Of a stretch of 63,025 nucleotides of DNA, positions 9,535-60,632 are shown one piece after another. Below the pieces are notes generated by a model that saw only the letters and a list, made by a program, of their open reading frames with translations, did no database searches and was not told the DNA's origin. Position numbers and translations under genes: made by a program. Every line of letters begins with the position of its first letter. The stretch's first letter is position 1. Source of the stretch: Lachnospiraceae bacterium (GTDB lineage Bacteria > Bacillota > Clostridia > Lachnospirales > Lachnospiraceae); assembly GCA_022797375.1 (NCBI GenBank), contig JAAWKM010000002.1, positions 1 to 63,025 on the forward strand, in the 5' to 3' direction.

Positions 9535-10245
9535 ATGAATCAAAAAAATTTTTACAAAAACATCACAGGCACACATATGGAAGATGCACCAAAAAGCACC
9601 AGAAAGCAGTACAGAAACAGGTTTTTATCCTACAGATTTGAAATTATGGATGATGATAATATTCATTCCATTTCATTCAGGGGAAAATTAACAGATGAAG
9701 AAACAAAGAAAATGCTGGCATCAATACAGAACTGTTTATATGAAAAAACAGCAGACCGCATCCAGACATACCTGGAACAAAATAATATTGCATACACAGG
9801 TTTTGTTGCCAGCAGAAAACCATTAAACCACAGCAGGACCATGAAACTTGCAGAACTGTTTCTTCATTCTGAAACCTGTAACAGTCTTGATACCCACACC
9901 AGCAGTGCTGATATTTACTATACTATAATTGACCACCAGCAGCCTGGCAATAAAAACAACTGTGAAGGATGCTATGTTGTAGTCCAAAGGACACCTGCAT
10001 TAAACAAATGCCAGCATAAATACAATATTATTGGTCAGACATTCAGCTGCAATGAAACCAGCAGCAATGAATATGGTTATTTTGCTATAAGAGAAAACAA
10101 AGGTAATGGACTGTTAGATAATATTGCTTTATCAAATGGGGAACCAGTGTTGCCAACATTTGGCTGTATAGATATGACATGGCTTCTGATAAATATTGAC
10201 AGTATCCAGACAGCAGAACAGGCTGTACAACATGCCGTAAAATAA
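9535..10245 (+). CDS. Unknown XRE-controlled protein (236 aa)
   Basis: I do not recognise the family. The protein is soluble, with scattered Cys (NCEGCYVV) and a C-terminal FGCIDMTWLL segment. A strong AAAAGGAGG precedes the ATG at 9535. The frame is also open from an ATG at 9418, adding 39 residues that include HGAGDILF. A related leader is present as a separate ORF in the decayed second copy at 26920, so the upstream part may be a translated leader. The pairing with a divergent repressor and twin operators resembles immunity or toxin modules, but no toxin motif is visible. Confidence 0.65.
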   Translation: MNQKNFYKNITGTHMEDAPKSTRKQYRNRFLSYRFEIMDDDNIHSISFRGKLTDEETKKMLASIQNCLYEKTADRIQTYLEQNNIAYTGFVASRKPLNHSRTMKLAELFLHSETCNSLDTHTSSADIYYTIIDHQQPGNKNNCEGCYVVVQRTPALNKCQHKYNIIGQTFSCNETSSNEYGYFAIRENKGNGLLDNIALSNGEPVLPTFGCIDMTWLLINIDSIQTAEQAVQHAVK

Positions 10246-12803: not shown

Positions 12804-14135
12804 TTATATAGCACAATGGATACTTTTTTGTTCAATATTATAAACCGTACCCTGTTTGTATTTTTCTTTAATTTTTTTCTGCTCCTCTGGCTTTGCAATA
12901 CGCCATATTTTGCAGACTGTCCTCTCTGCCTCTTCCCATGTCATACCACCCTGGAGCAGTTTTTCATCAATCTTTTCAATTTCCTTCCATGCATCAAAAA
13001 CAATAATTGAACCAAGCCCTGTATAAGAGCCACTGCTTGTTGTCAATGCCGGGGCATAGTCTGTAATTTCTTTTCTGTTTTTTACATTAAAGTATTTTGG
13101 GATATAATTATTTTTTTTGTAAAACTCTATATATTGCCTGGTTACATATTTTTTATTCCTGTTATCCTCTTTTTCCAAATGATCTGGGTCAAACTCATTT
13201 ATGATGTACCCATTAGAAATATACTCACTGCTGTCTTCCACTGTTCCATCATCTGGATTTTCATCTTCCTGTAGTTCCCTAAGAAAGCCTGCCAGCATAT
13301 CAATTTCAACCGTCTGCTCTGTATAATATCCGACACAGAATGAACTGCTGCCATGTTCCTTATGTTTTTTGCAGTAACTCTCTGAAAAAACCATATGGTA
13401 ACTATATTTCTTACTGTCTGCACAAAGTTTTTTACCATAACCATATTCCACAGCTATAAGCTTGCTTCCATCTGGAAAATCATACTTATAATATGCTGCA
13501 TGGATATTCTGGTCTATATACCACAGACCCCAGTCCTCTACATTTTCTAACCACTCCCTAAGTTCTGCATCACTCGTAAGTCTTGGCAGGAGTGTCTGCA
13601 TATATCCCCTGTAAATACTATCCACATGCGATGTCGCATTAACTCCAGCCTGCACTGTCTTACCAGAAGTTTCTTCCGTCCTGGATTTTTGTAATTTCCT
13701 GTCTTTTCTCTTAAATTCCCGGATTTCCCTTACTGTCATGTCTGGTGAAATCCCCAGCCTCTTATCTGCACCAACATTCAGCATCTCTGTCAGCTGCGAC
13801 AGTGAATACCCCTGGTATCTGGCATCAAGTCCTGGTGAACTGCCATTTTCTGAAAACTCAGTGCAGATGTTTATAAACCTTGTTGCTGTTGGCTGGGAAA
13901 TATTAAATTTTTCTTTTGCAAATTCATATATGTTCTTATACCCTTCCCTTTGGTACCAGCCGTTATCCTTTATTTTCTTCAGATGCCATCCAACCCTGAC
14001 AAATGACTCTTTTATGCTTTTCAGTTCTGTCCTTATAATATCCACTGATTCTTCATATCCTCTATTACATACATCTGTACTGCCTGGCATTGCCGCTGGT
14101 CCAGGCTGGCCTTCCAAATAAATATTGTGCCCCAT
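12804..14135 (-). CDS. HTH-containing plasmid/phage protein (DUF3102-like N-terminus)
   Basis: The first 130 of 443 residues resemble DUF3102-type proteins: an initial helix (VDIIRTELKSIKESFVRVGW), then YKNIYEFAKEKFNISQPTATRFINIC, a ParB-like helix-turn-helix. The remainder is novel to me and carries a Cys/Trp-rich middle (KKHKEHGSSSFCVGYY). Such proteins are common in Clostridial plasmids and prophages. AAGGAGG, located 22 bp after the methyltransferase stop, sets the ATG at 14135. The two genes therefore form one operon, and this protein may act with the methyltransferase. Confidence 0.6.
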   Translation of the reverse strand: MGHNIYLEGQPGPAAMPGSTDVCNRGYEESVDIIRTELKSIKESFVRVGWHLKKIKDNGWYQREGYKNIYEFAKEKFNISQPTATRFINICTEFSENGSSPGLDARYQGYSLSQLTEMLNVGADKRLGISPDMTVREIREFKRKDRKLQKSRTEETSGKTVQAGVNATSHVDSIYRGYMQTLLPRLTSDAELREWLENVEDWGLWYIDQNIHAAYYKYDFPDGSKLIAVEYGYGKKLCADSKKYSYHMVFSESYCKKHKEHGSSSFCVGYYTEQTVEIDMLAGFLRELQEDENPDDGTVEDSSEYISNGYIINEFDPDHLEKEDNRNKKYVTRQYIEFYKKNNYIPKYFNVKNRKEITDYAPALTTSSGSYTGLGSIIVFDAWKEIEKIDEKLLQGGMTWEEAERTVCKIWRIAKPEEQKKIKEKYKQGTVYNIEQKSIHCAI

Positions 14136-20389: not shown

Positions 20390-21757
20390 TTAATATTTAT
20401 TATATGCTACAATCTTTTTTATCTTGTGTGCTGCTGGATATCTGTTTTTGGCATAAACCCCTTTCATCCACCTGGCATAATGTGCTTCCGGGTCATAATA
20501 TCTGCTGTTAATTTTTACCCATGCATGGCGTGTATAGCCATCCGCCGCCCTGTCCCTTGAACCATGCACCCTGCCACATATAATATATGGTTTATAGCCA
20601 GCTTCTGATGCAAGGGCAGCAAATGCACAGGCATAACTGTAACAATTCCCTGTATGGGTTGACAACATATCATATGCTGTCCTTACTTGCCAGCCAGGCG
20701 AACTTAAATCCGGGTACTTGCTTGCATAACGGAACTTTCCTCCAGTTATATAATCCCAGCAGGCTTTAAGCTTCTCTTTTTTAGACATTTTCTTGTTTGT
20801 AAGGGAATTAATTTTCCTGATAAGAATTATTTTAAGCTTTGAATTAACATTACTTTTTGCTTCCCCTGTCCCAGTAAATGTAATACCCTGGTATTTTGTA
20901 TCCGTTTTTACTATTCCTTTTTTATTTGCATAATAAAGCTTGTTCTTTTTTATCTGCCAGCCTCCAGCTGCTTTTCCATCTGGTCCTGCACAATAAACTT
21001 TGTCTCCTGCTGTAACTATAGTTATACTGTCTGATTTTGCAAGTTTCCCATTACTATGGAATATGTAATAACAATTTTTAATTTTACATAATCCAGTTGC
21101 CATATAGTTACATCCAGGCAAAAAATAGTATTTACATCCATCAATTTTTTTCCAGCCTGTTACTAAACAGCCATCTTCCCCACAGTAATAAGTCCTGTCA
21201 TCAGTTCCAGCCCAGCCAGAAACACACAAAGTCCCGGTTTCATCAAAAAAATAAACTTTACCATCTATCTCCTGCCGTCCCTGGAGCATAACACCTGTTT
21301 CAAATGAAAAATAATATTTCATTTCATCAAATTCCTGCCAGCCTGTAGCCATCTCTCCTGTTTCTGGCAAAAAATAGTACTTTTTACTTTCTATTTCCTG
21401 CCAGCCTGTAACCATCTCCCCTGTTTCTGGCAAAAAATAATACTTTTTACCTTCTATCTCCTGCCAGCCTGTAGCCATCTCCCCTGTTTCTGGCAAAAAA
21501 TAATACTTTTTACCTTCTATCTCCTGCCAGCCTGTAACCATCTCCCCTGTTTCTGGCAAAAAATAATACTTTTTACCTTCTATCTCCTGCCAGCCTGCTG
21601 GCACATCTGATGGAATATCTGCTGCAACATTTTCTATAACAGGATATGTATAATCTGTAATATATGGAAATCCCTCTTTTTCTCCTGCTTTAGCAGCAGT
21701 ACCTGAAATTATTGTTGCTATGGCACACAGCACATATCTGGTTAATTTTTTATTCAT
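20390..21757 (-). CDS. Secreted cell-wall-binding repeat protein with transglutaminase-like domain
   Basis: The 455-residue protein starts with a signal peptide (MNKKLTRYVLCAIATIISG). About ten choline/glucan-binding-type repeats (GWQEIEGKKYYFLPETGEM) follow in residues 55-290. The C-terminal domain is transglutaminase-like, with Cys (TGNCYSYA), His (TRHAWVKI) and Asp (YYDPEAHY) in the papain-like order. It is presumably exported, bound to the wall by the repeats, and acts as a protease or transpeptidase. The first four repeats are nearly identical in DNA. AAAGGGGG supports the start. Confidence 0.85.
   Translation of the reverse strand: MNKKLTRYVLCAIATIISGTAAKAGEKEGFPYITDYTYPVIENVAADIPSDVPAGWQEIEGKKYYFLPETGEMVTGWQEIEGKKYYFLPETGEMATGWQEIEGKKYYFLPETGEMVTGWQEIESKKYYFLPETGEMATGWQEFDEMKYYFSFETGVMLQGRQEIDGKVYFFDETGTLCVSGWAGTDDRTYYCGEDGCLVTGWKKIDGCKYYFLPGCNYMATGLCKIKNCYYIFHSNGKLAKSDSITIVTAGDKVYCAGPDGKAAGGWQIKKNKLYYANKKGIVKTDTKYQGITFTGTGEAKSNVNSKLKIILIRKINSLTNKKMSKKEKLKACWDYITGGKFRYASKYPDLSSPGWQVRTAYDMLSTHTGNCYSYACAFAALASEAGYKPYIICGRVHGSRDRAADGYTRHAWVKINSRYYDPEAHYARWMKGVYAKNRYPAAHKIKKIVAYNKY
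21344..21595 (-). repeat. Four near-identical 63-bp tandem repeats
   Basis: Residues 55-138 of the wall-binding protein are four 21-residue units that differ only at V/A and G/S positions and are almost identical in DNA. Such identity implies recent duplication and makes copy number prone to change by slippage. Confidence 0.8.
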
Positions 21758-21770
21758 CTTTCTGCCCCCT

Positions 21771-22340
21771 TTAAAATCCTGTCATAAAATATTGTGTATC
21801 TTTATAATTGTTATAAACTTTTTTTAATCTGTTCCTTTTTTTCAGAAAATACTTTCCAGAAGAATTTCCTGCATATTTATCCATATTTGTATCACATATA
21901 TACCATTTTGAATTTATTTTTACTTCTGTCCATGAATGGTTTTGTAACTCTCCTGAAAAACCATTAGTTTTTCCGACGCCTATACGTACTTTATAACCTG
22001 TTGCTTTTTCTGCAAGAAACGCATATGCAGCAGCAAAGTGGTAACAGCTTCCTTTTTTTTCTGAATACATTTCCAAGGCATAGTCACCTGCCCAGCCATT
22101 ATAGGTTTCAAAACCAGTAACACGTTTATAACCATAATTATTCTCTACATATTTGAATAGCTTTTTTAATTTCTTTTTTCCACTGTCTGATGGTTTTGTA
22201 TTTCTTTTAACAATTTTTTTTGCCTGGGACGTTAAATTTGTTCCTGCAGAAACTGCCATACATCCATGCCCTGGTATAACACACGTAGTTATAGCAAAAA
22301 CCAATAGCAACAGTGTAAATTTTATTATATTCTTTAACAT
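21771..22340 (-). CDS. Secreted transglutaminase-like protein (189 aa)
   Basis: A hydrophobic signal sequence precedes a transglutaminase-like fold with Cys (KKGSCYHFA), His (QNHSWTEVKI) and Asp (WYICDTNMD) in order. It lacks the wall-binding repeats of its neighbour, so it may act on the same substrate in free form. It is separated from the gene at 20390-21757 by 13 bp. AAAGGAG supports the start. Confidence 0.75.
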   Translation of the reverse strand: MLKNIIKFTLLLLVFAITTCVIPGHGCMAVSAGTNLTSQAKKIVKRNTKPSDSGKKKLKKLFKYVENNYGYKRVTGFETYNGWAGDYALEMYSEKKGSCYHFAAAYAFLAEKATGYKVRIGVGKTNGFSGELQNHSWTEVKINSKWYICDTNMDKYAGNSSGKYFLKKRNRLKKVYNNYKDTQYFMTGF

Positions 22341-22376
22341 ATAATTTTTCTCCTTTTCTTCACCACAAGCTTGTTT

Positions 22377-23087
22377 TTATTCTACATCCATAAAAATTTC
22401 TTTTCCCTTGTCTGGCTTAAATGTATAAACTGTAAAACCATCATAAGACAACACACCGTCTTTTCCATTTCCATAACAGCTTGCACAATATCTGGATTTA
22501 TCCGGGTTTCCTATTATTTTTTTCAAACCCGCAAATGGTTTTTCATATTTTGCTGCTTTACGTATTTTAGATGTCTTTTTTATATTATATTTCCCATCTG
22601 CATTAAAACAGTAAAATTTCTTTTTAATTACTATAATTCCTTTTGCCATCTCCATATTTTCATAGAAATAATATTTGTGGTCTTTTGTCCAGCCATTTAT
22701 TGCAGTCCCATCTGGCATTACATAGTATTTCTTAAACCCATTAGCAGTTTTTACGCTAGTAACTTTCTTAGATGCTGGCTGTATAAGCTGCCCTTTATTA
22801 TTAAAAATATAATATTTTCCTTCCATTTTATATTTTGAAACAGCAGCATTGCCATTTTTCTTAAAATAATATGTATTGCCATCTAAAATTACCCATCTGT
22901 TTGTAACTCTCTCCTCATTCTCATAATAATGATAATGTCCGTCTTCATACATAAGCCCATCCAGAACCATGTCTGTATTTTCTGATGGCATATTTTTCCC
23001 ATCTGCATATGAAACAACAGAAAATACCACTGGCCCTGCTGCCAGGATAAACAGACATAAAACAGCAGTTACAATTTTTTTAAACAT
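22377..23087 (-). CDS. Secreted cell-wall-binding repeat protein (236 aa)
   Basis: The signal peptide (IVTAVLCLFILAAGPVVF) is followed by degenerate wall-binding repeats (VILDGNTYYFKKNGNA, KMEGKYYIFNNKGQL, WTKDHKYYFYENMEM). A short C-terminal domain with CASCYGNG and DGFTVYTF has no enzyme motif that I recognise. It is the first gene of the surface operon, 145 bp downstream of the palindromic promoter. AGGAGGG sets the ATG at 23087, not the upstream ATG. Confidence 0.75.
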   Translation of the reverse strand: MFKKIVTAVLCLFILAAGPVVFSVVSYADGKNMPSENTDMVLDGLMYEDGHYHYYENEERVTNRWVILDGNTYYFKKNGNAAVSKYKMEGKYYIFNNKGQLIQPASKKVTSVKTANGFKKYYVMPDGTAINGWTKDHKYYFYENMEMAKGIIVIKKKFYCFNADGKYNIKKTSKIRKAAKYEKPFAGLKKIIGNPDKSRYCASCYGNGKDGVLSYDGFTVYTFKPDKGKEIFMDVE

Positions 23088-23232
23088 CTCAGTCCCTCCT
23101 AAATCCAATATACTATTACAGGAACACCAGTTTCTGCTTCTGTATATACCCATGATACAAAACTTATTGGCAGGTCCACACAGCCATGGCATCCAGTCTT
23201 TTAATATACTGGTATTATCTTTTACACCTATT

Positions 23233-23276
23233 AATTATACAATATTGTTGATTTTTGTCAACAATATTGTATAATT
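23233..23276. promoter_or_regulatory. Perfect 19-bp palindrome with built-in promoters for the surface operon
   Basis: Two 19-bp arms (23233-23251, 23258-23276) match perfectly across 6 bp. On the minus strand they contain TTGACA (23261-23256), a 16-bp spacer and TATAAT (23239-23234), a near-consensus promoter for the six-gene surface operon. By symmetry a weaker plus-strand promoter (TTGATT, TATAAT) is present. The centre, GTTGATTTTTGTCAAC, is a GTTGA-N6-TCAAC box like those at both XRE loci. Confidence 0.75.
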
Positions 23277-23405
23277 TATCCAAAATAAAACAGTGGCTGC
23301 TTATTACAGCTATTTATATATAATGTTCCATATAGCCAGCTTCACAACAACAGAAAATGCAAAAAAATATATTAATGAACCCAGAAAATTTATTTTCAAT
23401 TTTAT

Positions 23406-23477
23406 TGTCTAAAAATATTGACTAATAAACAGACACATCTTATAATAGTCTATAAATAAGTACATTATTTTTAGACA
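23406..23477 (+). promoter_or_regulatory. Promoter of the PLD-ATPase gene flanked by an inverted repeat
   Basis: TTGACT (23418-23423), a 17-bp spacer and TATAAT (23441-23446) form a strong promoter. It is bracketed by a perfect 12-bp inverted repeat, TGTCTAAAAATA (23406-23417) and TATTTTTAGACA (23466-23477). The layout suggests repression by a looping or dimeric factor. Confidence 0.65.
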
Positions 23478-23504
23478 TGTATTAAAAATGGGGGGGATTA
23501 AATT

Positions 23505-25583
23505 ATGGATAACCAAATAAATTTATTTAAGAAAAATATTTCTGGTAATTTAACTGTTATAGAAGGCGGCAGCACTACACCAGAAAATAATCCAACACTG
23601 TTAAAATGTTTTAAAACAGAACTTAAAGAAATTGGATTTAAGTCTGTTCCTGAACTGTTTTCAGGGTTTAATACTATTAAAGCAATAACTTTTTCATACA
23701 ATATTGGTTTTATAGACAGCATTATGAAAAATTTCAATTATGGGGAAATTATACTTGGTGCAGATTTTCTGGTATGCAAAGATAATAAATACAATGAATT
23801 TCTTTCAGAAGTGTTTACAAATATCCATGAAGCTGGCAAAGCAGTATCTTCACATAAAAAACTTGCAGAAATGGTTTCAGAGGGCAGCCTGTTTTTCTGT
23901 ACCCCTGTTTTTATACTTGACCACAGGAAAATTTACCTGCTTAAATCTGACAATGGCAGTACAAGGGTCATTACAACTTCTGCAAATATGACTGGAAGGG
24001 CATGGAACGGTGACCAGATGGAATTTTATGAATATGATGATTCACCATACTGTTATGAAGAATACAGCAAAGACTTTGAAACAGCATGGAAAAACTCTGA
24101 AGAACTGCCAATGTCTGTTATTTCATCCAAAAAGGCTGATGACCTTGTTGAAGGAAATGCTGTACTGAAAAAAATCAAGGAAACCGGGCATACTATTGTG
24201 TTACAGCAGCCGGAAGATATTGTTTCATTTGACAATATTAAATATACAATAGACCACGAAAAGATAAAAGAAGAATACAAAGTCCTTCTTAATGGCATTA
24301 ATACTAAAGATAAACATGGCATGGCTGAAATTGTTCCAAAAACTATTGAAAAAATCCAGCATAACCAGAAGAAACTTGCACAAAAGAAAGTAACAATAAA
24401 CAATGTAACAGAAAAATATCCTGTCCTTTCTTTTGATTTTGCAAATAAAGAGGCCTTTTTAAATGGCAAAATACTTGACCTTGACCCTGAAGATGATAAA
24501 ATTAAACAGGATATAGAAGAAATGCTTAGTATGTTTTCAAATTTCAGCCAGTTTGTTGGCGATACCAGAAAGCTTCAAGAAACACATTTTAAACTAATTA
24601 ATGCCATGTTCTCATCCCCGTTTAATGCTAAACTACGTTGCACAGCAAAAATAAGAGGAATCGGGACATCAAGCCTGCCCTTGTTTCTTTTAGCAGTTTC
24701 AGAAACAGCAAACTGCGGAAAAACATTTATAATCTCTGCAGCATTAAAAATGATTACGGGAAAAAACCTCCCTGTAATTAACAAAGCAGACTGTAAAAAA
24801 GAAGATGTCAGGATAATACAGGCAGGATGTAAAGGTATTCCAGTATTTATAGATGAAATGGATAATAAATACCTTGCTAATATAAAGGATATTATTAAAA
24901 ATCCAGAAAGATGTGAAGAAAACCAGATAGAAGAACAGCCAATGCTTCTGTTTGCAAGTAATAATGTAACAGACCCTGATGAAACTATCCGTAAACGCAT
25001 GGTACTTCTCAGGTTTAACAGCTCCCTGCCAAGCAGTATTGACCAGAATGCATATAAAGGGATGGGAAATGCAGTTATTAAACGCCTTGGGACTGCATTT
25101 TACCGGGAATATCTGAAAAGAATGCTGGATATTGTATCAAATGAACTGGATTATATTATCCATGACAAAAATATTCCTGACTCTTATTACCCAGATTTAA
25201 TGGCACCATCATCAGACACAATAATGGCAATTATTTCTGGTTATGGATATTCTGTACCTGGATACATGCACCATCTTTCATGGAACCATGATTATTCAGT
25301 TAATGCAGGCTTTATTGCTGAGGATGCCATTAATGAAATTAAACAGTTATACCAGCAGAACAAAAAATCATTTATTCTGTGTAAAGAAACAGTAACAATT
25401 GAACTTGGTCCTGACAGAGACAGTGAAAATAAATGCAAAGTGCGGAAAAATATATTGCCACCAGAAATGAAAGTACAAATAATACACTCACGCGATTGTA
25501 AAAAAATTGTCATGGACAGGACAGAATTAGAAGCCAGGCTTGGTTTTAAACTTACTAAAAATTCAATATTTTCAAGGAGGTAA
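23505..25583 (+). CDS. Phospholipase D-like nuclease fused to an AAA+/SF3-like ATPase
   Basis: The N-terminal 200 of 692 residues resemble a PLD-type phosphodiesterase with one HKD-like motif: HRK near residue 139 and TSANMTGRAW near 158. The spacing to the acidic residue is non-standard. After a charged linker, residues 380-600 form an ATPase: a P-loop-like SETANCGKT near 400, a Walker B FIDEMD near 447, a sensor LLFASNN and an arginine-finger-like RKRMVLLRF. PLD-ATPase combinations occur in anti-phage proteins, but I do not recognise this exact fusion. A GGGGGGG ribosome-binding site precedes the ATG. The last codons contain the AGGAGG used by the gene at 25589. Confidence 0.6.
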   Translation: MDNQINLFKKNISGNLTVIEGGSTTPENNPTLLKCFKTELKEIGFKSVPELFSGFNTIKAITFSYNIGFIDSIMKNFNYGEIILGADFLVCKDNKYNEFLSEVFTNIHEAGKAVSSHKKLAEMVSEGSLFFCTPVFILDHRKIYLLKSDNGSTRVITTSANMTGRAWNGDQMEFYEYDDSPYCYEEYSKDFETAWKNSEELPMSVISSKKADDLVEGNAVLKKIKETGHTIVLQQPEDIVSFDNIKYTIDHEKIKEEYKVLLNGINTKDKHGMAEIVPKTIEKIQHNQKKLAQKKVTINNVTEKYPVLSFDFANKEAFLNGKILDLDPEDDKIKQDIEEMLSMFSNFSQFVGDTRKLQETHFKLINAMFSSPFNAKLRCTAKIRGIGTSSLPLFLLAVSETANCGKTFIISAALKMITGKNLPVINKADCKKEDVRIIQAGCKGIPVFIDEMDNKYLANIKDIIKNPERCEENQIEEQPMLLFASNNVTDPDETIRKRMVLLRFNSSLPSSIDQNAYKGMGNAVIKRLGTAFYREYLKRMLDIVSNELDYIIHDKNIPDSYYPDLMAPSSDTIMAIISGYGYSVPGYMHHLSWNHDYSVNAGFIAEDAINEIKQLYQQNKKSFILCKETVTIELGPDRDSENKCKVRKNILPPEMKVQIIHSRDCKKIVMDRTELEARLGFKLTKNSIFSRR

Positions 25584-25588
25584 TTTAT

Positions 25589-26173
25589 CTGGATATTTAC
25601 ATTTATGCAAAAACTACTGAGAATATAAATTCCTTTAATGATATTATCAGCCTCGTCAAATCTTATGGCAGTATTACTATTAGTGTGGAAAATAAACGGA
25701 GTTTCAGGGAGTTAGATGCCATCAAAAACAAATGCCAGGGTAACGGTATTGTAATTGTTGGCAGTTTGTCTTCACTGGGTATAAATGACAATGAAATTGC
25801 CATCCAGCTTGGCTGGTTCATCAACAAACCAGTCATTCTTGTTGTTTGTAACATTCCATCAACATACGAATATGGCTTTTCACAACCCATGAATAAGGCT
25901 GTGCTTAGTGCTATACTCCAGACAGCCATTGGCCACAGCAAAAACATAGTTACAATCCCACAAGACAGAAAATCAAATGCTGGCAGGCATAAAACCAGCT
26001 TTCCCAGCAACTGGGATGATTTATATAACAAATGGACAAACAAAGAAATCTCTTCAAAAGATTTTATTAAACAGACTGGATTAAAAAAAGCTACATTTTA
26101 CAACCTGCTGACAGAATACAAAGAAATACAGCAGATAAATGCTGAATATATTAAAAAATACAGGCCAGGCTGA
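25589..26173 (+). CDS. Serine-recombinase-like protein without catalytic serine (CTG start)
   Basis: The 194-residue protein follows the small serine resolvase plan: a strand start (DIYIYAKTTENINS), VIVGSLSSLG where resolvases have VxxLSRLGR, and a C-terminal HTH preceded by the typical linker (SNWDDLYNKWTNKEISSKDF). The catalytic region YxRxS is replaced by YAKTT and the active-site arginines are not evident, so recombination is unlikely. CTG at 25589 lies eight bases after the AAGGAGG that ends the PLD-ATPase gene. It is the best start and implies translational coupling. It may serve as a DNA-binding partner of that protein. Confidence 0.55.
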   Translation: MDIYIYAKTTENINSFNDIISLVKSYGSITISVENKRSFRELDAIKNKCQGNGIVIVGSLSSLGINDNEIAIQLGWFINKPVILVVCNIPSTYEYGFSQPMNKAVLSAILQTAIGHSKNIVTIPQDRKSNAGRHKTSFPSNWDDLYNKWTNKEISSKDFIKQTGLKKATFYNLLTEYKEIQQINAEYIKKYRPG

Positions 26174-26366
26174 ATTATTCCATTTTGACAAAAGAGAAAG
26201 AAAGACATCAGTCCACCAGAAAGCTGGAAGAGAAAGGAAGAAGAGAAAATCATAGCAAGCAGAAAATGCAGCTTATACAAAATTTGCAGAAAAGGCAGAA
26301 AAATTTGAAAAAACTTTAGACAGATAAAAAGGGGGTAAGTTTCCTGTCTTATTGCAAACACAATAA

Positions 26367-26398
26367 CTGCCCTGGTAGTTTCTGGCATTACAGGGCAG
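26367..26398. terminator. Hairpin between converging genes
   Basis: CTGCCCTG pairs with CAGGGCAG over a 16-nt loop, between the plus-strand PLD module and the minus-strand XRE copy 2. No clear T tract follows on either strand, so termination is only possible. I see no gene in 26174-26447. Confidence 0.4.
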
Positions 26399-26447
26399 CT
26401 ATTATGATTTAAAAATAATTTTTACTGTATGCTCTTTTTGGCAGGTA

Positions 26448-26786
26448 TCATTCTCCCTTGTGGAACAGGTTGATACATTCATCAATAATATTTTCCACTA
26501 TCCTCACTTCTGATGCCGTCAGTTTATCCAGCTTTTCTGAAAGCAAAAGCTTATCCTTGTCTATGATATCCCCTGTCAGTAAATAATCTGTACTGACCTC
26601 CAGGGCAGCAGCAATCCTCATCAGGTTTTCTGGTCTCATTGCCCTTTTCCCTGATTCTGCATAAGAAACAAACTGGGTTGTCACACCGCTCTTTTCTGCC
26701 AGTGCTTCCTGTGTAAGCCCAAGCTTTTTACGGCAGTCCATAATTCTTTGCCCTGTTTCCTGTAAATACAATTTAACATCTAACAT
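26448..26786 (-). CDS. XRE-family repressor, copy 2
   Basis: This 112-residue protein is a close paralogue of the repressor at 8937-9275. The two share FVSYAESGKRAMRPENLM, LEVSTDYLLTGDII and the C-terminal helix. It is again divergent from a gene, here decayed. AAGGAGGG sets the ATG at 26786. It could regulate both XRE loci and the surface operon if it recognises the shared GTTGA-N6-TCAAC boxes. Confidence 0.85.
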   Translation of the reverse strand: MLDVKLYLQETGQRIMDCRKKLGLTQEALAEKSGVTTQFVSYAESGKRAMRPENLMRIAAALEVSTDYLLTGDIIDKDKLLLSEKLDKLTASEVRIVENIIDECINLFHKGE

Positions 26787-26806
26787 TCTAATTCGCCCTC
26801 CTTTTT

Positions 26807-26878
26807 GTGGAATTATATCAACACAAGACATATATTTTAATCCTATGTTGTTAATATAATTCAACATAATGTTATAAT
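26807..26878. promoter_or_regulatory. XRE operators and promoter, copy 2
   Basis: GTGGAATTATATCAAC (26807-26822) and GTTAATATAATTCAAC (26850-26865) are one-mismatch versions of the copy 1 operators at the same spacing. TATAAT follows at 26873-26878. Confidence 0.6.
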
Positions 26879-26919
26879 TTATGAAACAGCATAATTATAG
26901 ATTCCCAAAACCTGTGGGC

Positions 26920-27520
26920 ATGCAGCATTTCTTTGATGGCTCTCTGCCTGGTATTGTAACCAAAGAACCTGCTTATTTTTGCAAAAATCATAGCCATGGT
27001 GCACATGATATGCTTTTTTTAATTAACCAAGAGGAGGATAAACAATAATGAACAAAGAAACTTCTAACAAACATATCACATACACACAGGAAACTGGCAT
27101 GCTGCTGGCAAATATTTGATGGCCAATTGTCAGAAGGCAGCCACTGGAACACCATAAAGCTATGAAATTTGCAGAATTATTTCTTTATACAGATACCTGT
27201 TACAGCTTTGGCATATATATTGCCTGCAAAAACAATTGTGAAGGCTGCTATATTGCAGCTCAAATAGTATCTGCATTGTATAAAAGACAATACCAATACA
27301 ATATCATAGGACAGAAATTTAATTATGACTTGGCCAGTGGTGATGAATATGGCAGCTTTGCAATCAGGACAAGTAAAAACAGCAGATATTTCAATACCTT
27401 GATGAATCAGAAAACAGGTTAATTCTTCCGGCATTTGGATATGTAGATATAACAGGGCTTCTGTTGGATATTGATAACATCCAGACTATAAAGCAGGCAG
27501 AAAAAATTGCAGTGAGGTAA
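26920..27520 (+). pseudogene. Decayed second copy of the XRE-controlled gene, with leader ORF
   Basis: A leader ORF (26920-27048, MQHFFDGSLPGIVTKE, later HGAHDMLF) matches the region upstream of the copy 1 gene and ends in TAATG, overlapping the next ATG. The following frame reads MNKETSNKHITYTQETG then jumps to LLANI and stops. Relative to copy 1 it has lost about 60 codons and has frameshifts before KFAELFLYTDTC and after LMNQKTG. The last part (FGYVDITGLLLDIDNIQT) again matches copy 1. Confidence 0.75.
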
Positions 27521-27629
27521 TCTATGTATAAGACGAAGCAAATAATATATCTGCTGCCATTATTATATTTTATGAATAGACTGGATGGTAAATGGCAATA
27601 ATCTGACTAAAAAGCAGAAATCACACCAG

Positions 27630-27672
27630 TTAAAACAAAAAACTTGTTTTAATCCAGTTTGTTGTGTATAAT
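27630..27672 (+). promoter_or_regulatory. Promoter with inverted repeat for the AAA/TOPRIM-like pair
   Basis: TTGTTT (27644-27649), 17 bp and TATAAT (27667-27672) form a promoter whose -35 lies within an inverted repeat, TTAAAACAA (27630-27638) and TTGTTTTAA (27644-27652). The leader is only about 10 nt, so translation follows immediately. Confidence 0.6.
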
Positions 27673-27689
27673 AGAAGGGAGGTGAGGAA

Positions 27690-28811
27690 ATGAAATTATT
27701 ATATGTGGCATCCAGCCATTTTAAAAATTCCAATGACAATTTTAATATCAGCCTTGTTGCAAAATCAAAAAAAACATCAGAGGACAGGGAGTATGAACTC
27801 CAGGAAGTTGCAGAAGAACTTTATGTATATAATACTTTAGCATTTATAGGAAAAAATGCATCCGGCAAAACAACAGCTGCCGAATTGCTGGACTGCTGTT
27901 ACTCTGTTCTCAGTGATTTCAGACTGGAAGGCAAACATTACAGTTATGACAATGTGGATTTAGACATGGTATTTTTCCATGAAGGATATTTATACAGATA
28001 TATAACTATATTACAGCCTGATGATTCACTTGGAAATAAGGCAGTATTCACAAACCAGCATATATACAGGAAAAAATATTACAAATCTAAAATAAAAACA
28101 ATATTTGGACAAGATGGTTTTTCTGAATTAACCGGTTTTGGTGTTCTACCTGAAGATACTTCACTGGTATTCTTTGTGTTAAAGAAAAGGGCAACAAGAG
28201 CCATATACTTTGATGGCTTTGGTGAGGGTGCAGACACTTATGCACTCCTTTTTAAAGCAATGAAAAATTATAAAATACAGGATGGGCTGTTCTTAAATAT
28301 CATCCGGATTTTTGATGAAAATATCAAACAGATTGAACGGATTGACGACCATAATTACAGGCTTGTTTTCCAGGATTTAATAAACCGGACTGTTTCGGAT
28401 AAGGAACTTTTATACCTGCTTTCCAGCGGCACTACAAAAGGGATACTGCTGTATACCCTCATGGTGGCATCACTGCAGAATGGTTTTGACCTTATTGTAG
28501 ATGAGATAGAAAACCATTTCCATAAAACCCTTGTCGAAAATATGCTCAGCCTGTATAAAGATAAAAGTGTAAACAGGAATAATGCAACACTGATATTTAC
28601 AACACATTACTGCGAAATCCTGGATTTGTTCAACCGCAGGGATAATATCTGGATAGCAAAGACAAACCCAAAGGTTTATCTCAGCAATATGTATGAAGAT
28701 TATGAAATCCGTACAGAACTTCTTAAAAGCAGGCAGTTTTACAACAATGCATTCCAGACTGCTGTAAATTATGAAGAACTTATGAATATGAAAAGGAAGC
28801 TGATGGAATGA
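27690..28811 (+). CDS. ABC-type AAA ATPase of a two-gene defence-like pair
   Basis: The 373-residue protein has a P-loop (GKNASGKTT, near 53), an ABC signature-like LLSSGTTKG (near 244), a Walker B VDEIENHF (near 270) and an H-loop TTHY (near 304). This is the AAA_15/OLD-like ATPase pattern seen in AbiL, PARIS and retron systems. There is no nuclease domain in the protein; the downstream gene overlaps by 4 bp (ATGA) and probably supplies it. GGGAGG supports the start. Confidence 0.7.
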   Translation: MKLLYVASSHFKNSNDNFNISLVAKSKKTSEDREYELQEVAEELYVYNTLAFIGKNASGKTTAAELLDCCYSVLSDFRLEGKHYSYDNVDLDMVFFHEGYLYRYITILQPDDSLGNKAVFTNQHIYRKKYYKSKIKTIFGQDGFSELTGFGVLPEDTSLVFFVLKKRATRAIYFDGFGEGADTYALLFKAMKNYKIQDGLFLNIIRIFDENIKQIERIDDHNYRLVFQDLINRTVSDKELLYLLSSGTTKGILLYTLMVASLQNGFDLIVDEIENHFHKTLVENMLSLYKDKSVNRNNATLIFTTHYCEILDLFNRRDNIWIAKTNPKVYLSNMYEDYEIRTELLKSRQFYNNAFQTAVNYEELMNMKRKLME

Positions 28812-30305: not shown

Positions 30306-30484
30306 AATTGACGAAATTCTATTATAATCAACTTGATACTTGCCAGTATATCCAAAAAATTCTGTATACCTCTTTTTATGTATTCCTGAAACTCATTATT
30401 ATCAAAAAAACATCTCCATTCCACAATATATACCCAAAAGTACAAACCATTAAATTTTAACATGGTAAATGGTACACATATCAT
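30281..30484 (-). CDS. Small ORF coupled to hsdR (67 aa, doubtful)
   Basis: Its ATG overlaps the hsdR stop (ATGA) and its end overlaps the HEPN-like gene, so it would bridge the two. Composition (hydrophobic start, then EYIKRGIQNFLDILASIK) is plausible for a small protein. It may only serve to carry ribosomes to the HEPN-like gene. Confidence 0.3.
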   Translation of the reverse strand: MICVPFTMLKFNGLYFWVYIVEWRCFFDNNEFQEYIKRGIQNFLDILASIKLIIIEFRQLWTMKLKV

Positions 30485-33400
30485 ACCACTATATTACTGC
30501 TCATAAGCCCAGCCTGTTTAATGACAACATCAATAGCACTTTTTGCATTTTCAGGTGGGTAACCATGCTTTCTAAGCAGATGTTTCACCTGTGTTCTCAT
30601 ATATGCCCTGGCTGATTTCTTCTTATCCCAGTCAACTGTCCTGCTTTTTCTGATTAATTCTGTCAGTTCCTGTGCTATCTGCACCAGAATATCATCTTTC
30701 ATTTTTGTCAGTACTTCCGGATCTGCCACCAGGGCATCATAGAAAGCCAGTTCCTCTGTGGACAGTCCTTTTTCTTCTCCTGCATAAAATGCCCTTGACA
30801 TTTCCTTAGAAAGTGCCAGTAATTCTTCTATAACCTCAACATTGCTAATTAAACGGTTGTTATACTGTTTTAGTATCTGCTGCATTCTTTCTGAAAAGAG
30901 CTTTGATTTGACAACACCTGTCCTTGCAAATACACGGATATTGTCTTCCAACAGTTTCCTAAGAGTTTCGGCGGCTATATTTTTATGTTTCATCTTCCGT
31001 ATCTTTTCCATATATTCATCAGACAGAATGGAAATCTCAGGATTTTTCTTCCCTGCCTGTGCAAATATGTTATATACACCTTCCTGCTCTACTGCCTGTT
31101 CCAGCATCTGCATAATACGGGAGTTAATCTCATTAGATGTTATCCCGCCTTTTCCCCCATACTTACACAGGCCTGCTTTGATGCACTTGAAAAACTCAAT
31201 TTCTCTTTTTACTTTTGTATCCAGCATGCTACGGCAAAGTGTCTCTGCCTGGCTGAGTGCTGTTGCCTCTTTAATGAACAGCTTTTTTTCATCCTCTTCA
31301 AACCCCAGTGCAAAATCTACACCATCTTTGATTGTATGCAGTCTGGCTCCATCAGAATCCCCAAAGAAAGCATCATAATCAAAACCATAAAAGAAATCCC
31401 TCATGGTTTCCAATTTGGCAAGTGCAATACTGTATGCCTGTGCCAGGTCAGGAACCTTGTCCTGGTCTCTCTTGGTATACTTGCCAAGTGCTGTCTTAAG
31501 TTCTGCTGCCATCCCTATGTAATCAACAACCAGTCCGGCTTCCTTATCCTTATAGACACGGTTTACACGGGCAATTGCCTGCATCAGATTGTGCCCTTTC
31601 ATCGGTTTGTCAATATACATAACCGCCATCGAAGGCACATCAAACCCGGTAAGCCACATATCCACAACAATTGCTATCTTAAAACCGCTTTTGACATCCT
31701 GAAATTCTTGCCTTAATTTCTCCCTGTAATTCTTGTTTCCAATAATACCATGCCAGTCCTCATCATCTTTGTTGCTTTCTGTTAAAACAACTTTCACTTT
31801 GTCCTTCCAGTTTTTCCGTTTATCCAGGATAATCCGGTACAGGGTGATGGCAATTCTCCGTGACATGCACACAATCATCGCTTTCCCTGTAAGTACATAC
31901 TGCCTGTCCTCATAATGGGCAATGATATCATCTGCCAGAAGTTCCAGCCTTTCCTTGGAACCAACGATGGCTTCCATGTTCCCTAAATCCGACTTTGATT
32001 TTTCAATCAGCAGTCCAGGGGCATCTGCTGCCATTTTATCGTACTCCGCATCAATCTGTTTTAATATCTTTTCATCCAGCTTTATTTTTGCTGCACGGTT
32101 TTCATAATATATAGGCACTGTGGCACCATCCTCCACCGCCTGTGTCATATCATAAATATCTATGTAATCACCAAATACCTCTGTTGTAGACTTATCCTCA
32201 AAATCTACCGGGGTTCCAGTAAATCCAATAAATGCAGCATTTGGCAGTGAATCCCTCATATATTTTGCCATTCCATACTTCCATTCACCAGTTTCCCTGT
32301 CCAGCTTTCCATCCAGGCCATACTGGGACCGGTGTGCCTCATCTGCCATAAAAATAATATTGTTCCGTTCACTTAAAACCCCGCTGCCTTCTTCAAACTT
32401 CTGTATTGTGGTAAAAACAATCCCACCTGCTTTTACCTTCAGCAGTTCTTTTAAATGTTTCCTGCTCTCTGCCTGTTTTGGTGTCTGCCGGAGCATCAGC
32501 TTTGAACAGGAACAGAAAGTATTGTAAAGCTGCCTGTCTAAATCATTCCGGTCTGTCAATACAACAATTGTTGGATTATGAAATTCAGGGTTTCTTATAA
32601 TGCTGCCTGCATAAAACACCATGGAAAAACTTTTCCCGCTTCCCTGTGTATGCCAGACAACACCTATTTTATTGCTATTCTCCGCAAGGGCTTTAGAAGT
32701 TCTGTCAATTGCTTTATTTACTGCAAAATATTGATGGTATCCTGCCAAAATCTTTATTGTTTTACCCTCTGATTCCTTGAACATGATAAAATTCCGGATA
32801 ATATCCAGCAGCCGTTCTTTCGGAAATACTCCATTTAACAGAGTCTCAAAATAATTGATGCCCTCCTCCGCAGGCTGTTCCCCATTTTCTGATTTCCATG
32901 CCATATAACGGGTAAAATCAGAAGTAACCGTCCCTATGCGGGTATCCAGCCCATCACTGATAACATTAAAGGCATTGTAATAGAATAATGATGGGATATC
33001 CAGCTGGTAATTTTTTATCTGCTTATAAGCATCATCTATTGTAGTGCCAGCATTTGCCATATTTTTAAGTTCAAACAAAACCATTGGAATGCCATTGATA
33101 AATACCAGTACATCTGGTCTTTTGTTTTTGTATTCTATAATGGTGTATTGGTTGATAACCTTAAAATCGTTTTCCTCTGGATTGTCAAAATCAACCAGCT
33201 GCACTGTAAAAGTAGCAGGTTCTCCATTTTTCCGGTATGTGACAGGCACCCCCTCCAGCAGGTATTTGTGGAAAGCTGCATTCATGTCCTCTAATTTGAG
33301 CAGTCCAAGATTTCTTACTGCTTTATATGCCTCCCCAGCGATTTCTGCAGTGATGCCATGATTTATTTTAAACATGGCATCATCAAAATAATCTTTTAGA

Positions 33401-33510
33401 ATTACCTCATGGTAATCCCTGTCAATATCAGGGCCATAGAGATATTCATATCCTTTTTCCAGCAGGTCTGACAAGATGACCTGCTCTAAAGTGTTTTCGT
33501 TTATTGGCAT
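30481..33510 (-). CDS. hsdR: Type I restriction enzyme, motor/nuclease subunit HsdR
   Basis: The 1009-residue subunit has the N-terminal nuclease motif (RPDVLVFING, then LFELKN, near 135-150). Walker A (HTQGSGKSF, near 287), the DEAH box (ADEAHRSQYG, near 388) and the TGTP and QAIARVNRVY helicase motifs follow. It translocates and cleaves unmodified DNA together with HsdM and HsdS. AGGAGG before MPINENTLEQ fixes the start at 33510. Confidence 0.95.
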   Translation of the reverse strand: MPINENTLEQVILSDLLEKGYEYLYGPDIDRDYHEVILKDYFDDAMFKINHGITAEIAGEAYKAVRNLGLLKLEDMNAAFHKYLLEGVPVTYRKNGEPATFTVQLVDFDNPEENDFKVINQYTIIEYKNKRPDVLVFINGIPMVLFELKNMANAGTTIDDAYKQIKNYQLDIPSLFYYNAFNVISDGLDTRIGTVTSDFTRYMAWKSENGEQPAEEGINYFETLLNGVFPKERLLDIIRNFIMFKESEGKTIKILAGYHQYFAVNKAIDRTSKALAENSNKIGVVWHTQGSGKSFSMVFYAGSIIRNPEFHNPTIVVLTDRNDLDRQLYNTFCSCSKLMLRQTPKQAESRKHLKELLKVKAGGIVFTTIQKFEEGSGVLSERNNIIFMADEAHRSQYGLDGKLDRETGEWKYGMAKYMRDSLPNAAFIGFTGTPVDFEDKSTTEVFGDYIDIYDMTQAVEDGATVPIYYENRAAKIKLDEKILKQIDAEYDKMAADAPGLLIEKSKSDLGNMEAIVGSKERLELLADDIIAHYEDRQYVLTGKAMIVCMSRRIAITLYRIILDKRKNWKDKVKVVLTESNKDDEDWHGIIGNKNYREKLRQEFQDVKSGFKIAIVVDMWLTGFDVPSMAVMYIDKPMKGHNLMQAIARVNRVYKDKEAGLVVDYIGMAAELKTALGKYTKRDQDKVPDLAQAYSIALAKLETMRDFFYGFDYDAFFGDSDGARLHTIKDGVDFALGFEEDEKKLFIKEATALSQAETLCRSMLDTKVKREIEFFKCIKAGLCKYGGKGGITSNEINSRIMQMLEQAVEQEGVYNIFAQAGKKNPEISILSDEYMEKIRKMKHKNIAAETLRKLLEDNIRVFARTGVVKSKLFSERMQQILKQYNNRLISNVEVIEELLALSKEMSRAFYAGEEKGLSTEELAFYDALVADPEVLTKMKDDILVQIAQELTELIRKSRTVDWDKKKSARAYMRTQVKHLLRKHGYPPENAKSAIDVVIKQAGLMSSNIVV

Positions 33511-33556
33511 GATGCCACATCCTCCTCTGTTAGCTTCAATACTTTTAACACATAAT

Positions 33557-33772
33557 TTAACTTGATTTGTTAGGGGCAACAAAACCTATAGGTCTTTTAG
33601 GTTTTTCATCAATTCTATCCAAAGAAGTTAATAAAAAATTTAATTGGTTCATATGTTGAATTAAAACAGACATTTTTCCATTTATATATCCCTTAAAAAT
33701 CAACAATACTGGTTCTTCATATGTAACTTCTGCCACTTGCATAATTATAGATTGTCCAAAATTTGTCATCAT
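33557..33772 (-). CDS. Small protein between hsdS and hsdR (71 aa)
   Basis: I do not recognise it. It begins MMTNFGQSIIMQVAEVTYEEP and has an alternating hydrophobic pattern. GGAG precedes the ATG closely, and the ATG overlaps the stop of the 26-residue ORF at 33772-33852 (TAATG). It ends 46 bp before hsdR, so it belongs to the restriction operon. Confidence 0.55.
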   Translation of the reverse strand: MMTNFGQSIIMQVAEVTYEEPVLLIFKGYINGKMSVLIQHMNQLNFLLTSLDRIDEKPKRPIGFVAPNKSS

Positions 33773-35363: not shown

Positions 35364-35711
35364 TTAATTTTCTTGCTTTTTTAACAAATGAGAAATTCCA
35401 GCTCTTTCTGTTGCAAATAATGGTATGTAATTATTTATATATATTAAATCATTCCTAATTTCAATATCAGTTTTGCTTATATTTTGATTTGTTACATACA
35501 TACCATTATTTTGAAATTTTGCCAATATATTTAGTTCTAGTCTATATTTCTCTGCCAATTTACTAATTTGCTTTTTTGCTTCAAACGAATTAAAGTACTG
35601 TGCAGATAAAATATTATTATTTTCCTCTATTTCATCAATATACTCTTGAAAATCATGAGTTTCTTTTGCTTTTTCATAAAGTTTATATATTTCCTCAAAA
35701 TCAAATTTCAT
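35364..35711 (-). CDS. Small helical protein between hsdM and hsdS (115 aa)
   Basis: A charged, mostly helical protein of unknown function whose ATG overlaps the end of hsdM by 11 bp, so it is translationally coupled. A GGGGG upstream can serve as ribosome-binding site. Its place in the operon suggests a restriction accessory or an antitoxin-like partner for the HEPN-like protein, but no motif supports either. Confidence 0.55.
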
Positions 35712-37215
35712 ATCCAATCGCCCCCAGTTTCTTTCTTATCTCCTCTTGAAGTTCTATTGACTTTGCAAACATTTCAGACAGTTCTGAAGTAAGCCTTTTC
35801 ATCTTTTCCTCATAAGGCTCTCCGTCATCTTCTTGTTCTTCAATACCAACATACCGTCCTGGTGTCAGTACAAAATCCTGCTTCTCGATTTCCTCAATAG
35901 TTGCCTCTTTGCAAAATCCCTGAATATCTTCATAATCCTTGCCTTTCCACCAGTTCTGATATGTACTGGCAATTTTCCAAATATCCTCTTCTGACAGCTC
36001 CCTTACTTTCCTGTCAACCATATGCCCAAGTTTTCTGGCATCAATAAATAAAACCTTACCGTCAGAATGTTCACCCTTACCTTTTCTCAATATCCACAAA
36101 GAAACTGGGATTCCCGTAGAATAGAACAACTGGCCTGGCATGGCAACAATACATTCCACCACATTACCCCTCACCATATTCTCTCGGATATTTCCCTCAT
36201 TTGATGTATTGGAACTTAACGAGCCATTTGCCAATACAGTGCCACATACACCTCTTGCCGGGTTCAAATGGTGCAGCATATGCTGAAGCCATGCAAAGTT
36301 AGCATTACCAGCAGGTGGAACACCATATTTCCAACGGACATCATCCTGTAATCTCTCCCCGCCCCAGTCAGAAATATTAAATGGCGGATTTGCTAATATG
36401 TAATTCGCTTTTAATGTTTTATGCTGGTCATCATGAAATGAATCAGCATTATGTTTTCCCAGATTTGCTTCAAGCTGTCTTATTGCCAGATTCATCTTCG
36501 CCAGTTTCCATGTGGTAGGATTGCTCTCCTGTCCAAAAATAGAAATGTCCCGTACATTGCCCTGGTGTTCTTTCACAAACCGTGCCGACTGGCAGAACAT
36601 ACCACCACTGCCACATGCCGGGTCAAAAATTTGTCCCTCATATGGTTCAATCATAGAAACAAGAGTACGGACAATACAGGATGGTGTATAGAATTCCCCA
36701 CCCAGTTTTCCCTCTGCACTGGCAAATTTGCTAAGGAAATATTCATACACCCTGCCCAAAACATCCCTTTCCTGTGCTGCTGTAGAACCCACCTCAATAT
36801 TTGTAAAAAGTGTTACCAGTTCCCCAAGCCTTGTTTTATCCAGTTCTGGCCTTGAATAATTTTTTGTCAGCACACCTTTCAGTGAATCATTTTCCTTTTC
36901 CAGTGCATCCATTGCAGTATCTATAACATTTCCAATATCAGTACTGGTAGCATGTTTTCCAATTTCATCCCACCGTGCCTCCTTTGGTATATAAAATATA
37001 TTTTCTGCCAGATATTCGTCCCTGTCTTCCTCATCTCCATAGCCTTCCGCTAATAACTGCTGGTATTTTTCCTCAAACGAATCAGAAACATATTTTAAAA
37101 AAATCAGCCCCAGCACAACATGCTTATACTCTGCTGCATCCATATTCGACCTTAGTTTATCTGCTGCCAGCCATAATTTCTCCTCAAATCCGACTGCCGT
37201 TGTTCCTTTTGCCAT
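35701..37215 (-). CDS. hsdM: Type I restriction methyltransferase subunit HsdM
   Basis: The 504-residue N6-adenine methyltransferase has the SAM-binding motif [10 protein letters not shown] (near 197) and the catalytic NPPF (near 277). The N-terminal HsdM helical domain ([18 protein letters not shown]) is present. It is the first gene of the operon hsdM - 115 aa - hsdS - 26 aa - 71 aa - hsdR - small ORF - HEPN-like. GGAGG before MAKGTTAV fixes the start at 37215. Confidence 0.95.
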
Positions 37216-37474
37216 TTCCGTTCCTCCATATATATCATATTTATTAATAACCGTTTTTGTTTTTTGTACCATATAACTTTTTTAATCAGGACAAACCAGT
37301 ACCATCATTATTATATTTGAGAAAGTATATAGTTTCAAGTAACTTTATCATTCTTTTATATAAAGCATATGTAAAAACATACAAACTTCCAGTATATCTA
37401 CTATAACAGTTTATTCCTGTATATACAATACCCGTGGTTTAACTGCTCCTACAGAACTAACCAGCCGCCATGTC

Positions 37475-45389: not shown

Positions 45390-46100
45390 ATGTGTTTGTA
45401 TGGATATTGCAGGATTTCAAAAAAACCACAATCTATTGACAGGCAAGTAAGGAACATAAAAAAGGAATACCCTGATGCAGTGATTGTCCATGAAGCATTT
45501 ACAGGAACAAAAATAAACAGACCTGAATGGAATAAACTGTATAAAAACATCCAAAATGGTGATATAATAATTTTCGATTCTGTCAGCCGTATGTCCAGAA
45601 ATTCAGAAGAAGGGTTCTCCTTGTATAAAGAATTATTTGAAAAAGGAATATCCCTTGTTTTTCTGAAAGAACACCACATTGACACAGATTCTTATAAAAA
45701 AGCCATGCAGGGAATTGTAGATATAAACATCAGATCCGGAGACAGTGCAACAGATGATCTGGTCCATGGGATTATGGCAGCCATTAATAAATTTATGATG
45801 AACAAGGTTGAACAGGATATCTACAAGGCATTTGAGCAATCTGAAAAAGAGGTTATGGATTTACATCAAAGAACTAAAGAGGGCATTGAAACCGCCAGAT
45901 TGAATGGTAAACAGATTGGATTACCTAAAGGCTCAAAGCTGGTGACGAAAAAATCCATCAAAGCTAAAGAACAAATCCGAAAGTACAATAAAGCTTTCAA
46001 TGGCTCTTTGAATAATGAAGATACATGGAAATTAACAGGCATATCCAAAACTGCATTCTACAAATATAAAAAGGAGATGCTTGCAGACGTGCAATCCTGA
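45390..46100 (+). CDS. Serine recombinase (resolvase/invertase family)
   Basis: The 236-residue protein has the catalytic Ser in YGYCRISKKPQSIDRQ, the conserved FDSVSRMSRNSEEG block (usual R-L-S-R region), and a C-terminal HTH (WKLTGISKTAFYKYKK). It likely resolves multimers or inverts DNA. It is complete, unlike the degenerate relative at 25589. The strand, SD (AGGAGG) and res-like upstream sites make it a self-contained module. Confidence 0.85.
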   Translation: MCLYGYCRISKKPQSIDRQVRNIKKEYPDAVIVHEAFTGTKINRPEWNKLYKNIQNGDIIIFDSVSRMSRNSEEGFSLYKELFEKGISLVFLKEHHIDTDSYKKAMQGIVDINIRSGDSATDDLVHGIMAAINKFMMNKVEQDIYKAFEQSEKEVMDLHQRTKEGIETARLNGKQIGLPKGSKLVTKKSIKAKEQIRKYNKAFNGSLNNEDTWKLTGISKTAFYKYKKEMLADVQS

Positions 46101-58943: not shown

Positions 58944-58990
58944 AAAGACCTTGAAACTACAAAAACAGTTACAAGGTCTTTCTTATTTTT
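58944..58990 (-). terminator. Terminator of the Gabija operon
   Basis: AAAGACCTTG pairs with CAAGGTCTTT around 18 nt, with T/A runs on both sides, 90 bp past gajB. In 58622-59081 the only frame (TTG start at 58820, MANSKNFLY) lacks a clear ribosome-binding site and is not supported. Confidence 0.75.
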
Positions 58991-60629: not shown

Positions 60630-60632
60630 ATA

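Follow-up and report, generated by a model that had tools for sequence, protein, structure and literature searches.

The window analysed here is a stretch of 63,025 nucleotides from a Lachnospiraceae bacterium (assembly GCA_022797375.1, contig JAAWKM010000002.1, positions 1 to 63,025 of the forward strand), and it carries a two-gene operon that is read here, with moderate confidence, as a self-regulated and probably defensive nuclease operon, repressed at its own promoter by a protein derived from a resolvase. Gene 1 (23505..25583, + strand), delimited by its open reading frame (ORF), profile matches and a family alignment, encodes 692 amino acids in which a phospholipase D (PLD) nuclease domain is fused to a P-loop ATPase with AAA+ or superfamily 3 (SF3)-like features, while gene 2 (25589..26173, + strand) encodes a resolvase-like protein of 194 amino acids that begins with CTG and lacks the catalytic Arg motif and Ser. 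An earlier note on this DNA, made from its letters alone, had placed both genes correctly and had cast the second as a DNA-recognition subunit for the first. Comparative sequence evidence makes gene 2 most likely an autorepressor that has kept DNA binding and lost catalysis.

The two genes constitute a real, conserved unit. Relatives of gene 1, 20-57% identical to it, were collected by successive searches of plasmids (tblastn, 8 records), genomes of the same class, viral contigs (1 locus) and genome contigs (79 loci), the loci being numbered with the prefix L. A profile of gene 2 recovered 12 distinct loci (17 matches including duplicates), always directly downstream of a PLD-ATPase gene. In a tree of 75 PLD-ATPases the 12 paired members form a single clade (Shimodaira-Hasegawa-like approximate likelihood ratio test, SH-aLRT, 100), and gene 2 is present in 12/12. 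The tree was built rapidly, SH-aLRT is its sole measure of support and several of its branches are long, that of L004 in particular; the crude picking of the longest ORF lost L065 from it and listed some antisense ORFs as neighbours. Gene 2 was not found in the loci of the 63 other tree members, four of which (L024, L028, L030 and L040) have less than 700 bp of downstream DNA, so that its absence there is not shown. The earlier note had held that homologues mostly found alone would refute its proposal, and this applies in part: most homologues (63 of 75) do stand alone, and pairing is complete within one clade. Gene 2 turns up three times in the 391 genomes searched within the class, always with a PLD-ATPase; these matches score 301-325 bits, and the best of the other recombinases scores 85 bits. 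Clustering of neighbours likewise identified gene 2 as the only family besides gene 1 common to the paired loci (11/12, gene 2 of L022 having been omitted owing to overlap).

The named hosts of paired loci belong to the Lachnospiraceae, Peptoniphilaceae, Acidaminococcaceae, Selenomonadaceae and Oscillospiraceae, and both proteins are 85-86% identical between L019 and L020, which lie in two of these families, implying horizontal transfer. The junction is tight: as the earlier note had seen, a Shine-Dalgarno AGGAGG (25575..25580, + strand) lies within the last codons of gene 1, suggesting translational coupling, and the same junction recurs in L015, L016 and L017, the other paired loci having other close junctions. 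The first in-frame ATG, GTG or TTG of gene 2 lies at 25685; the start was set at CTG 25589 because the start codon of the homologues aligns there. Both genes are under purifying selection: in three pairs the ratio of nonsynonymous to synonymous substitution (dN/dS) lies at 0.09-0.12 in gene 2 and at 0.06-0.08 in gene 1, with dS of gene 1 saturated at 2.1 in L015/L016. Direct repeats flanking the pair were sought in 11 of the 12 loci (not L020) and appeared in L015 only, apart from two weak inverted matches; in this Finegoldia locus an 81-bp direct repeat, 84% identical and not seen in the 10 other loci, spans 9718-9798 and 12961-13040. The Peptoniphilaceae pairs L015, L017 and L018 adjoin or neighbour a comM/YifB-like gene, as judged by eye.

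By sequence similarity, gene 2 is a relative of serine recombinases: tblastn links it to plasmid recombinases at E values down to 8e-9, a PHROG DNA invertase matches it at E 7.6e-4, and its profile lists 13 PDB sequences with E <=1 (0.068-0.45), every one of them a serine recombinase. The Pfam Resolvase model and the PADLOC models did not match it. Alongside this relationship, its sequence holds a C-terminal helix-turn-helix (HTH) region (26051..26119, + strand), located by alignment with active relatives. The absence of the catalytic Ser reported in the earlier note was borne out: the YxRxS position is Thr in six loci (the window and L013-L017), D in L019, E in L020, K in L021 and E in L022, Ser being retained in L018 and L071, so that it is lost in 10/12 partners. 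The catalytic Arg residues of the DRLxR and YxR motifs are gone in 12/12 and are retained in four plasmid relatives and in the window's own other recombinase. The oligomerisation helix of the partners is shortened, but they retain the GR arm as well as the HTH, which reads KKATFYN or KRATFYN. Loss of the active site rules out an active recombinase.

The same losses, of catalytic residues and of part of the oligomerisation helix, would be expected of a decaying, functionless remnant, an explanation whose probability is close to nil. It is contradicted by purifying selection on gene 2 and was rejected, and it sits poorly with the 40-54% identity that gene 2 keeps to the 11 other partners, with the intact HTH and with the presence of gene 2 in every member of the clade. 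Elsewhere in the window, at 45390-46100, an intact serine recombinase (domain from a profile) has GTCCTAAAA-like repeats upstream, seen by eye.

The region upstream of gene 1 suggests what the retained DNA-binding parts may bind. The promoter described in the earlier note is present inside a 12-bp inverted repeat, whose arms match exactly, at 23406-23417 and 23466-23477 with 48 bp between them, and enclose TTGACT-17-TATAAT. Read from the sequence, the -35 box TTGACT lies at 23418..23423 and the -10 box TATAAT at 23441..23446, both on the + strand and 17 bp apart. The repeat forms the outer limits of a pair of dyads that resemble resolvase sites and are built from the half-site GTCTA(A/T)AAAT; no strand is assigned to them. 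Putative operator dyad 1 (23407..23434, 28 bp) combines the half-site GTCTAAAAAT with the degenerate partner ATAAACAGAC and overlaps the -35 box, and putative operator dyad 2 (23448..23476, 29 bp) combines GTCTATAAAT and ATTTTTAGAC after the -10 box, over the predicted transcription start. Resolvases bind inverted half-sites of this type, and site I of gamma-delta is a dyad of 28 bp, a length like that of the dyads here. An Rfam scan of 21700-27700 gave no match.

These elements are conserved across paired loci. Half-site 1 is found in 11/12 of them, in five families (10 exact, L017 with one mismatch), and at least one half-site of dyad 2 (<=1 mismatch) in 10/11, L021 being the exception. The arms are offset by 18-19 bp wherever both are clear, and the starts of the two dyads are separated by 40-42 bp in six loci, whereas the separation is 51 bp in L019 and L020. 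Identity among 11 loci is 98% in half-site 1, 64% in the -35 region and 32% in the 55 bp before half-site 1. The 150-nt stretches upstream of the 12 genes in the paired loci hold 32 half-sites (<=1 mismatch); the shuffles add up to 2.85, and 64 loci of unpaired genes have 3. The motif accompanies gene 2, not PLD-ATPases in general. The pattern was derived from the window and loosened at one position (W) after other loci had been viewed, so the counting was not entirely blind. Exact dyad 2 is unique in the 3.94-Mb genome, and this promoter contains 3 of the genome's 10 exact half-sites.

The product of gene 2 would be a former resolvase that no longer cuts and that binds resolvase-type half-sites as dimers, occupying both dyads (28-29 bp), which lie across the -35 box and the predicted start of transcription. 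Since the dyads cover these elements, a bound dimer would block RNA polymerase and shut the operon off, a negative autoregulation that translational coupling would tune. Synthesis of the nuclease would follow transfer of the operon into a naive cell, or loss or removal of the repressor in the course of an infection. Four points in this account are inferred: gene 2 as the protein that occupies the operator, repression as the effect of its binding, DNA cleavage by gene 1, and phage or plasmid DNA as the target.

The proposal of the earlier note, that gene 2 recognises DNA and loads the PLD-ATPase onto resolvase-type sites of mobile DNA, is distinctly unlikely. Such a subunit would be in keeping with the fixed gene order, the tight junctions and the pairing of every member of one clade, and resolvase sites are hallmarks of mobile DNA; conserved dyads in the operon's own promoter would, however, direct the nuclease against itself, and this placement fits a repressor better than a targeting subunit. 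No resolvase was found alongside 63 of the 75 PLD-ATPases in the tree, and exact dyads occur in just five viral contig stretches, of which three represent a single region, within or near unrelated ORFs. No recombinase was found in these viral loci, and the idea that viral resolvase-like dyads are targets was rejected, the five stretches looking like chance. A looser tandem pattern returned 45 stretches in viral contigs, and a search of plasmids with the operator DNA gave three weak matches (E 0.7).

A reading with still less probability makes the promoter a mimic of a recombination site and hence a sensor of invasion, in which the resolvase sites of an incoming plasmid or transposon, or its active resolvase, would titrate or displace the gene 2 protein from the operator and switch on the PLD-ATPase. 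Were it true, the cell would detect mobile DNA through the machinery that resolves it. Viruses are not supported as the trigger, because the exact dyads of viral contigs are not in functional-looking positions; plasmids and transposons would be the candidate triggers.

Both enzymatic motifs of gene 1 are strongly conserved. Counts were made over 76 PLD-ATPases of at least 560 amino acids, after removal of seven loci duplicating a gene already included (L001, L006-L009, L011 and L012) and of eight fragments below 560 amino acids. In the PLD motif HxK...SAN...E (23922..24023, + strand), H140, K142, S159 and N161 are invariant (76/76) and E173 is kept in 75/76. In the ATPase motifs (24699..24998, + strand), which run from Walker A (to T407) through Walker B (P446-E451) and the sensor-like N486 to the Arg-finger-like R498, G405 and K406 of Walker A and N486 are found in 76/76 and R498 in 75/76. 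The set HxK...N...E, present in 75-76 of the 76 proteins, is that of PLD superfamily nucleases of the NgoFVII/BfiI type, in which it is the catalytic set, the roles of its residues being known from BfiI. Gene 1 on its own gives weak profile matches (PLDc_2, E 0.004; RE_NgoFVII, E 0.08), and across the family 57/60 members match PLDc_2 and 52/60 match RE_NgoFVII, a model of a restriction-nuclease PLD domain. The profile search suggested in the earlier note bears out the PLD domain. The fusion of PLD and P-loop ATPase also stands, the ATPase being AAA+ or SF3-like, with no decision between the two from profiles: at E <=0.01, PF00910 is matched by 3/60 members and AAA_24 by 5/60, the hhalign alignment with a D5-type helicase is weak (P 0.013, probability 3%), and the motif order resembles SF3 weakly.

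No model covering the full-length fusion was found in Pfam, NCBIfam, PHROGs or PADLOC, the matches being weak and mostly to the PLD part. In PADLOC gene 1 matched no system, the best being ZacB (E 0.022, over the PLD motif), and four relatives reached E 0.002-0.009 at best. Scans of close relatives with one protein gave no match, nor did phage records. The product would be a PLD-type nuclease, driven or gated by the fused ATPase, that acts on invading DNA; it would probably be a dimer, because each chain has one HxK...N...E motif. BfiI is metal-independent, and gene 1 would be likewise if BfiI-like. Among variant family members, the prophage-type PLD-ATPase at L022:8900-12049 has about 340 additional N-terminal residues, including a coiled coil, and is preceded by a gene whose product weakly matches a CoiA-like zinc domain; L023 holds a truncated PLD-ATPase of the paired type followed by transposase-like genes (by eye), and in L079 the gene is split across two frames.

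The PLD-ATPase is probably a defence nuclease, a view that rests on its sporadic spread, its mobile carriers, the union of nuclease and ATPase, and its restriction neighbours. In 299 genomes of the family a single-sequence search found the window copy only; 6/391 genomes of the class have a PLD-ATPase, one match being weak, and a full-length one was found in 1/14 genomes of the genus of G605. Three defence-like units near the pair, as the earlier note had them, are recognised by PADLOC models: an AbiLi-like ATPase (27690-28811), a type I restriction-modification (R-M) system with its endonuclease (30481-33582) and methyltransferase (35701-37272), and a Gabija pair, GajA and GajB (59082-62459), 33 kb from the operon. 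Elsewhere, a type IV restriction enzyme model (SauUSI-like) was matched by 9/132 sampled genes within 2.5 kb of PLD-ATPases, and the type is absent from the first 25 of the 87 families listed for 135 far genes. The sets were random ORFs of 120-1200 amino acids (near 132/261, far 135/222), each drawn as 140 and shortened by hand, from sources other than 11 (the window, L002-L005, L039, L041, L060, L076, L086 and L089).

The main rival for the function of gene 1 is plasmid maintenance or, more broadly, a role as a maintenance, replication or processing factor of mobile elements, an SF3-like helicase-nuclease with gene 2 as its regulator; it is unlikely, and has the best standing among the alternatives. 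Plasmids of Komagataeibacter and Acetobacter carry the PLD-ATPase among toxin-antitoxin genes, and one Athalassotoga plasmid also carries a copy; L022 is a prophage-type contig by eye (the same contig, in the viral collection, as L011); the window contig also encodes ParA, DnaB-like and primase-like proteins; and the motif order, weakly, is that of SF3. Against it, several copies are single genes amid chromosomal housekeeping genes (by eye), and SauUSI-type neighbours recur.

Several observations weigh against a repressed defence operon. On the defence side, type I R-M, Cas and AbiEi genes, about one each, occur in the far control set too, so that the contrast between near and far genes rests mainly on the SauUSI type. 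The defence neighbourhood is moderate, a restriction or defence gene lying within about 5 kb in at least 5/12 paired loci (the window, L013 with a PLD helicase found by clustering, L014, L016 and L019), the neighbours of the remaining paired loci having been judged by eye only; L017, L018 and L071 sit, by eye, among housekeeping genes. Sequence distances for gene 1 and for gene 2 correspond in part only (r 0.80, rho 0.47): gene 2 of the window is nearer to L015 (54%) than to L013 (41%), and its gene 1 is nearer to L013 (57%). On the operator side, both arms are present at <=1 mismatch in only 5/11 loci for dyad 1 and in 5/11 for dyad 2, the second half-site of dyad 1 in the window being degenerate, with three mismatches, and dyads with three mismatches do not rise above background (4 places, 9 in the reversed control). 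L021 has one half-site only at <=1 mismatch, and the prophage copy L022 has the pair with no operator at the gene. The exact tandem pattern occurs in 3/391 genomes, the window's and two unrelated ones (G638, in 54-bp repeats, and G488), equal to the three genomes of the reversed control. Near active relatives, half-sites are no more than mildly enriched, 21 against 12.5 expected around 22 recombinases, which is suggestive only, the count covering those 22 of 27 loci that have an intact-looking recombinase.

The combination, called new in the earlier note, is conserved, and no description of the pair and no resolvase-derived regulator of a defence operon was found in the open-licence literature. 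TnpR of Tn3/gamma-delta is a resolvase-fold protein that binds subsites in a promoter-containing site and represses its own gene and tnpA, in Tn3 through promoters inside res (PMC7157771). TnpR differs in that it still recombines and is transposon-borne, whereas gene 2 has lost catalysis and is paired with a nuclease-ATPase instead of a transposase. MrpR, the SP-beta master repressor, is also described as a recombinase fold that has lost recombination and become a repressor; its fold is that of tyrosine recombinases, however, and it controls a prophage, not a nuclease operon (PMC10516654). The WYL proteins CapW/BrxR, CapS (PMC13373217) and RptR (PMC12255303) are reported as dedicated repressors or regulators of defence operons; their folds are other ones, and each is encoded together with the operon whose promoter it binds. 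The words "resolvase" and "recombinase" were not found in the available parts of the CapS and RptR texts. Gene 1 shares a PLD nuclease domain with HxK...N with NgoFVII/BfiI, the type IV enzyme SauUSI, DrmC and ZacB, and differs from such PLD-type nucleases in that no library model matches the full-length fusion. On the question of how defence operons are silenced and then induced, the autorepressor reading, if true, would mean that a recombinase of mobile elements has become the transcriptional brake of a nuclease operon and a recombination site its operator, and a widespread PLD-ATPase family joins the likely defence nucleases.

Unpaired PLD-ATPases have settings of their own. L029, L045, L046, L050, L074, L075 and L076 have SauUSI-type helicase-nuclease, NUDIX-like and MazG-like neighbours in varied combinations, the latter two identified by eye, and a larger operon is possible there; clustering covered the neighbours of L052-L062 and parts of those of L051 and L063. 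An AraC-like regulator lies directly upstream of the PLD-ATPase in L030, L040, L059 and L064 (by cluster, with Pfam on L064 only), and a WYL regulator does so in L036 (Pfam). Within the window, at 53713-62459, TniQ, a TniB-like ATPase, a Mu/TnsB-like transposase (weak match) and a small TnsA-like ORF (by eye) directly adjoin GajA and GajB, and the Gabija pair may be cargo of these Tn7-like genes.

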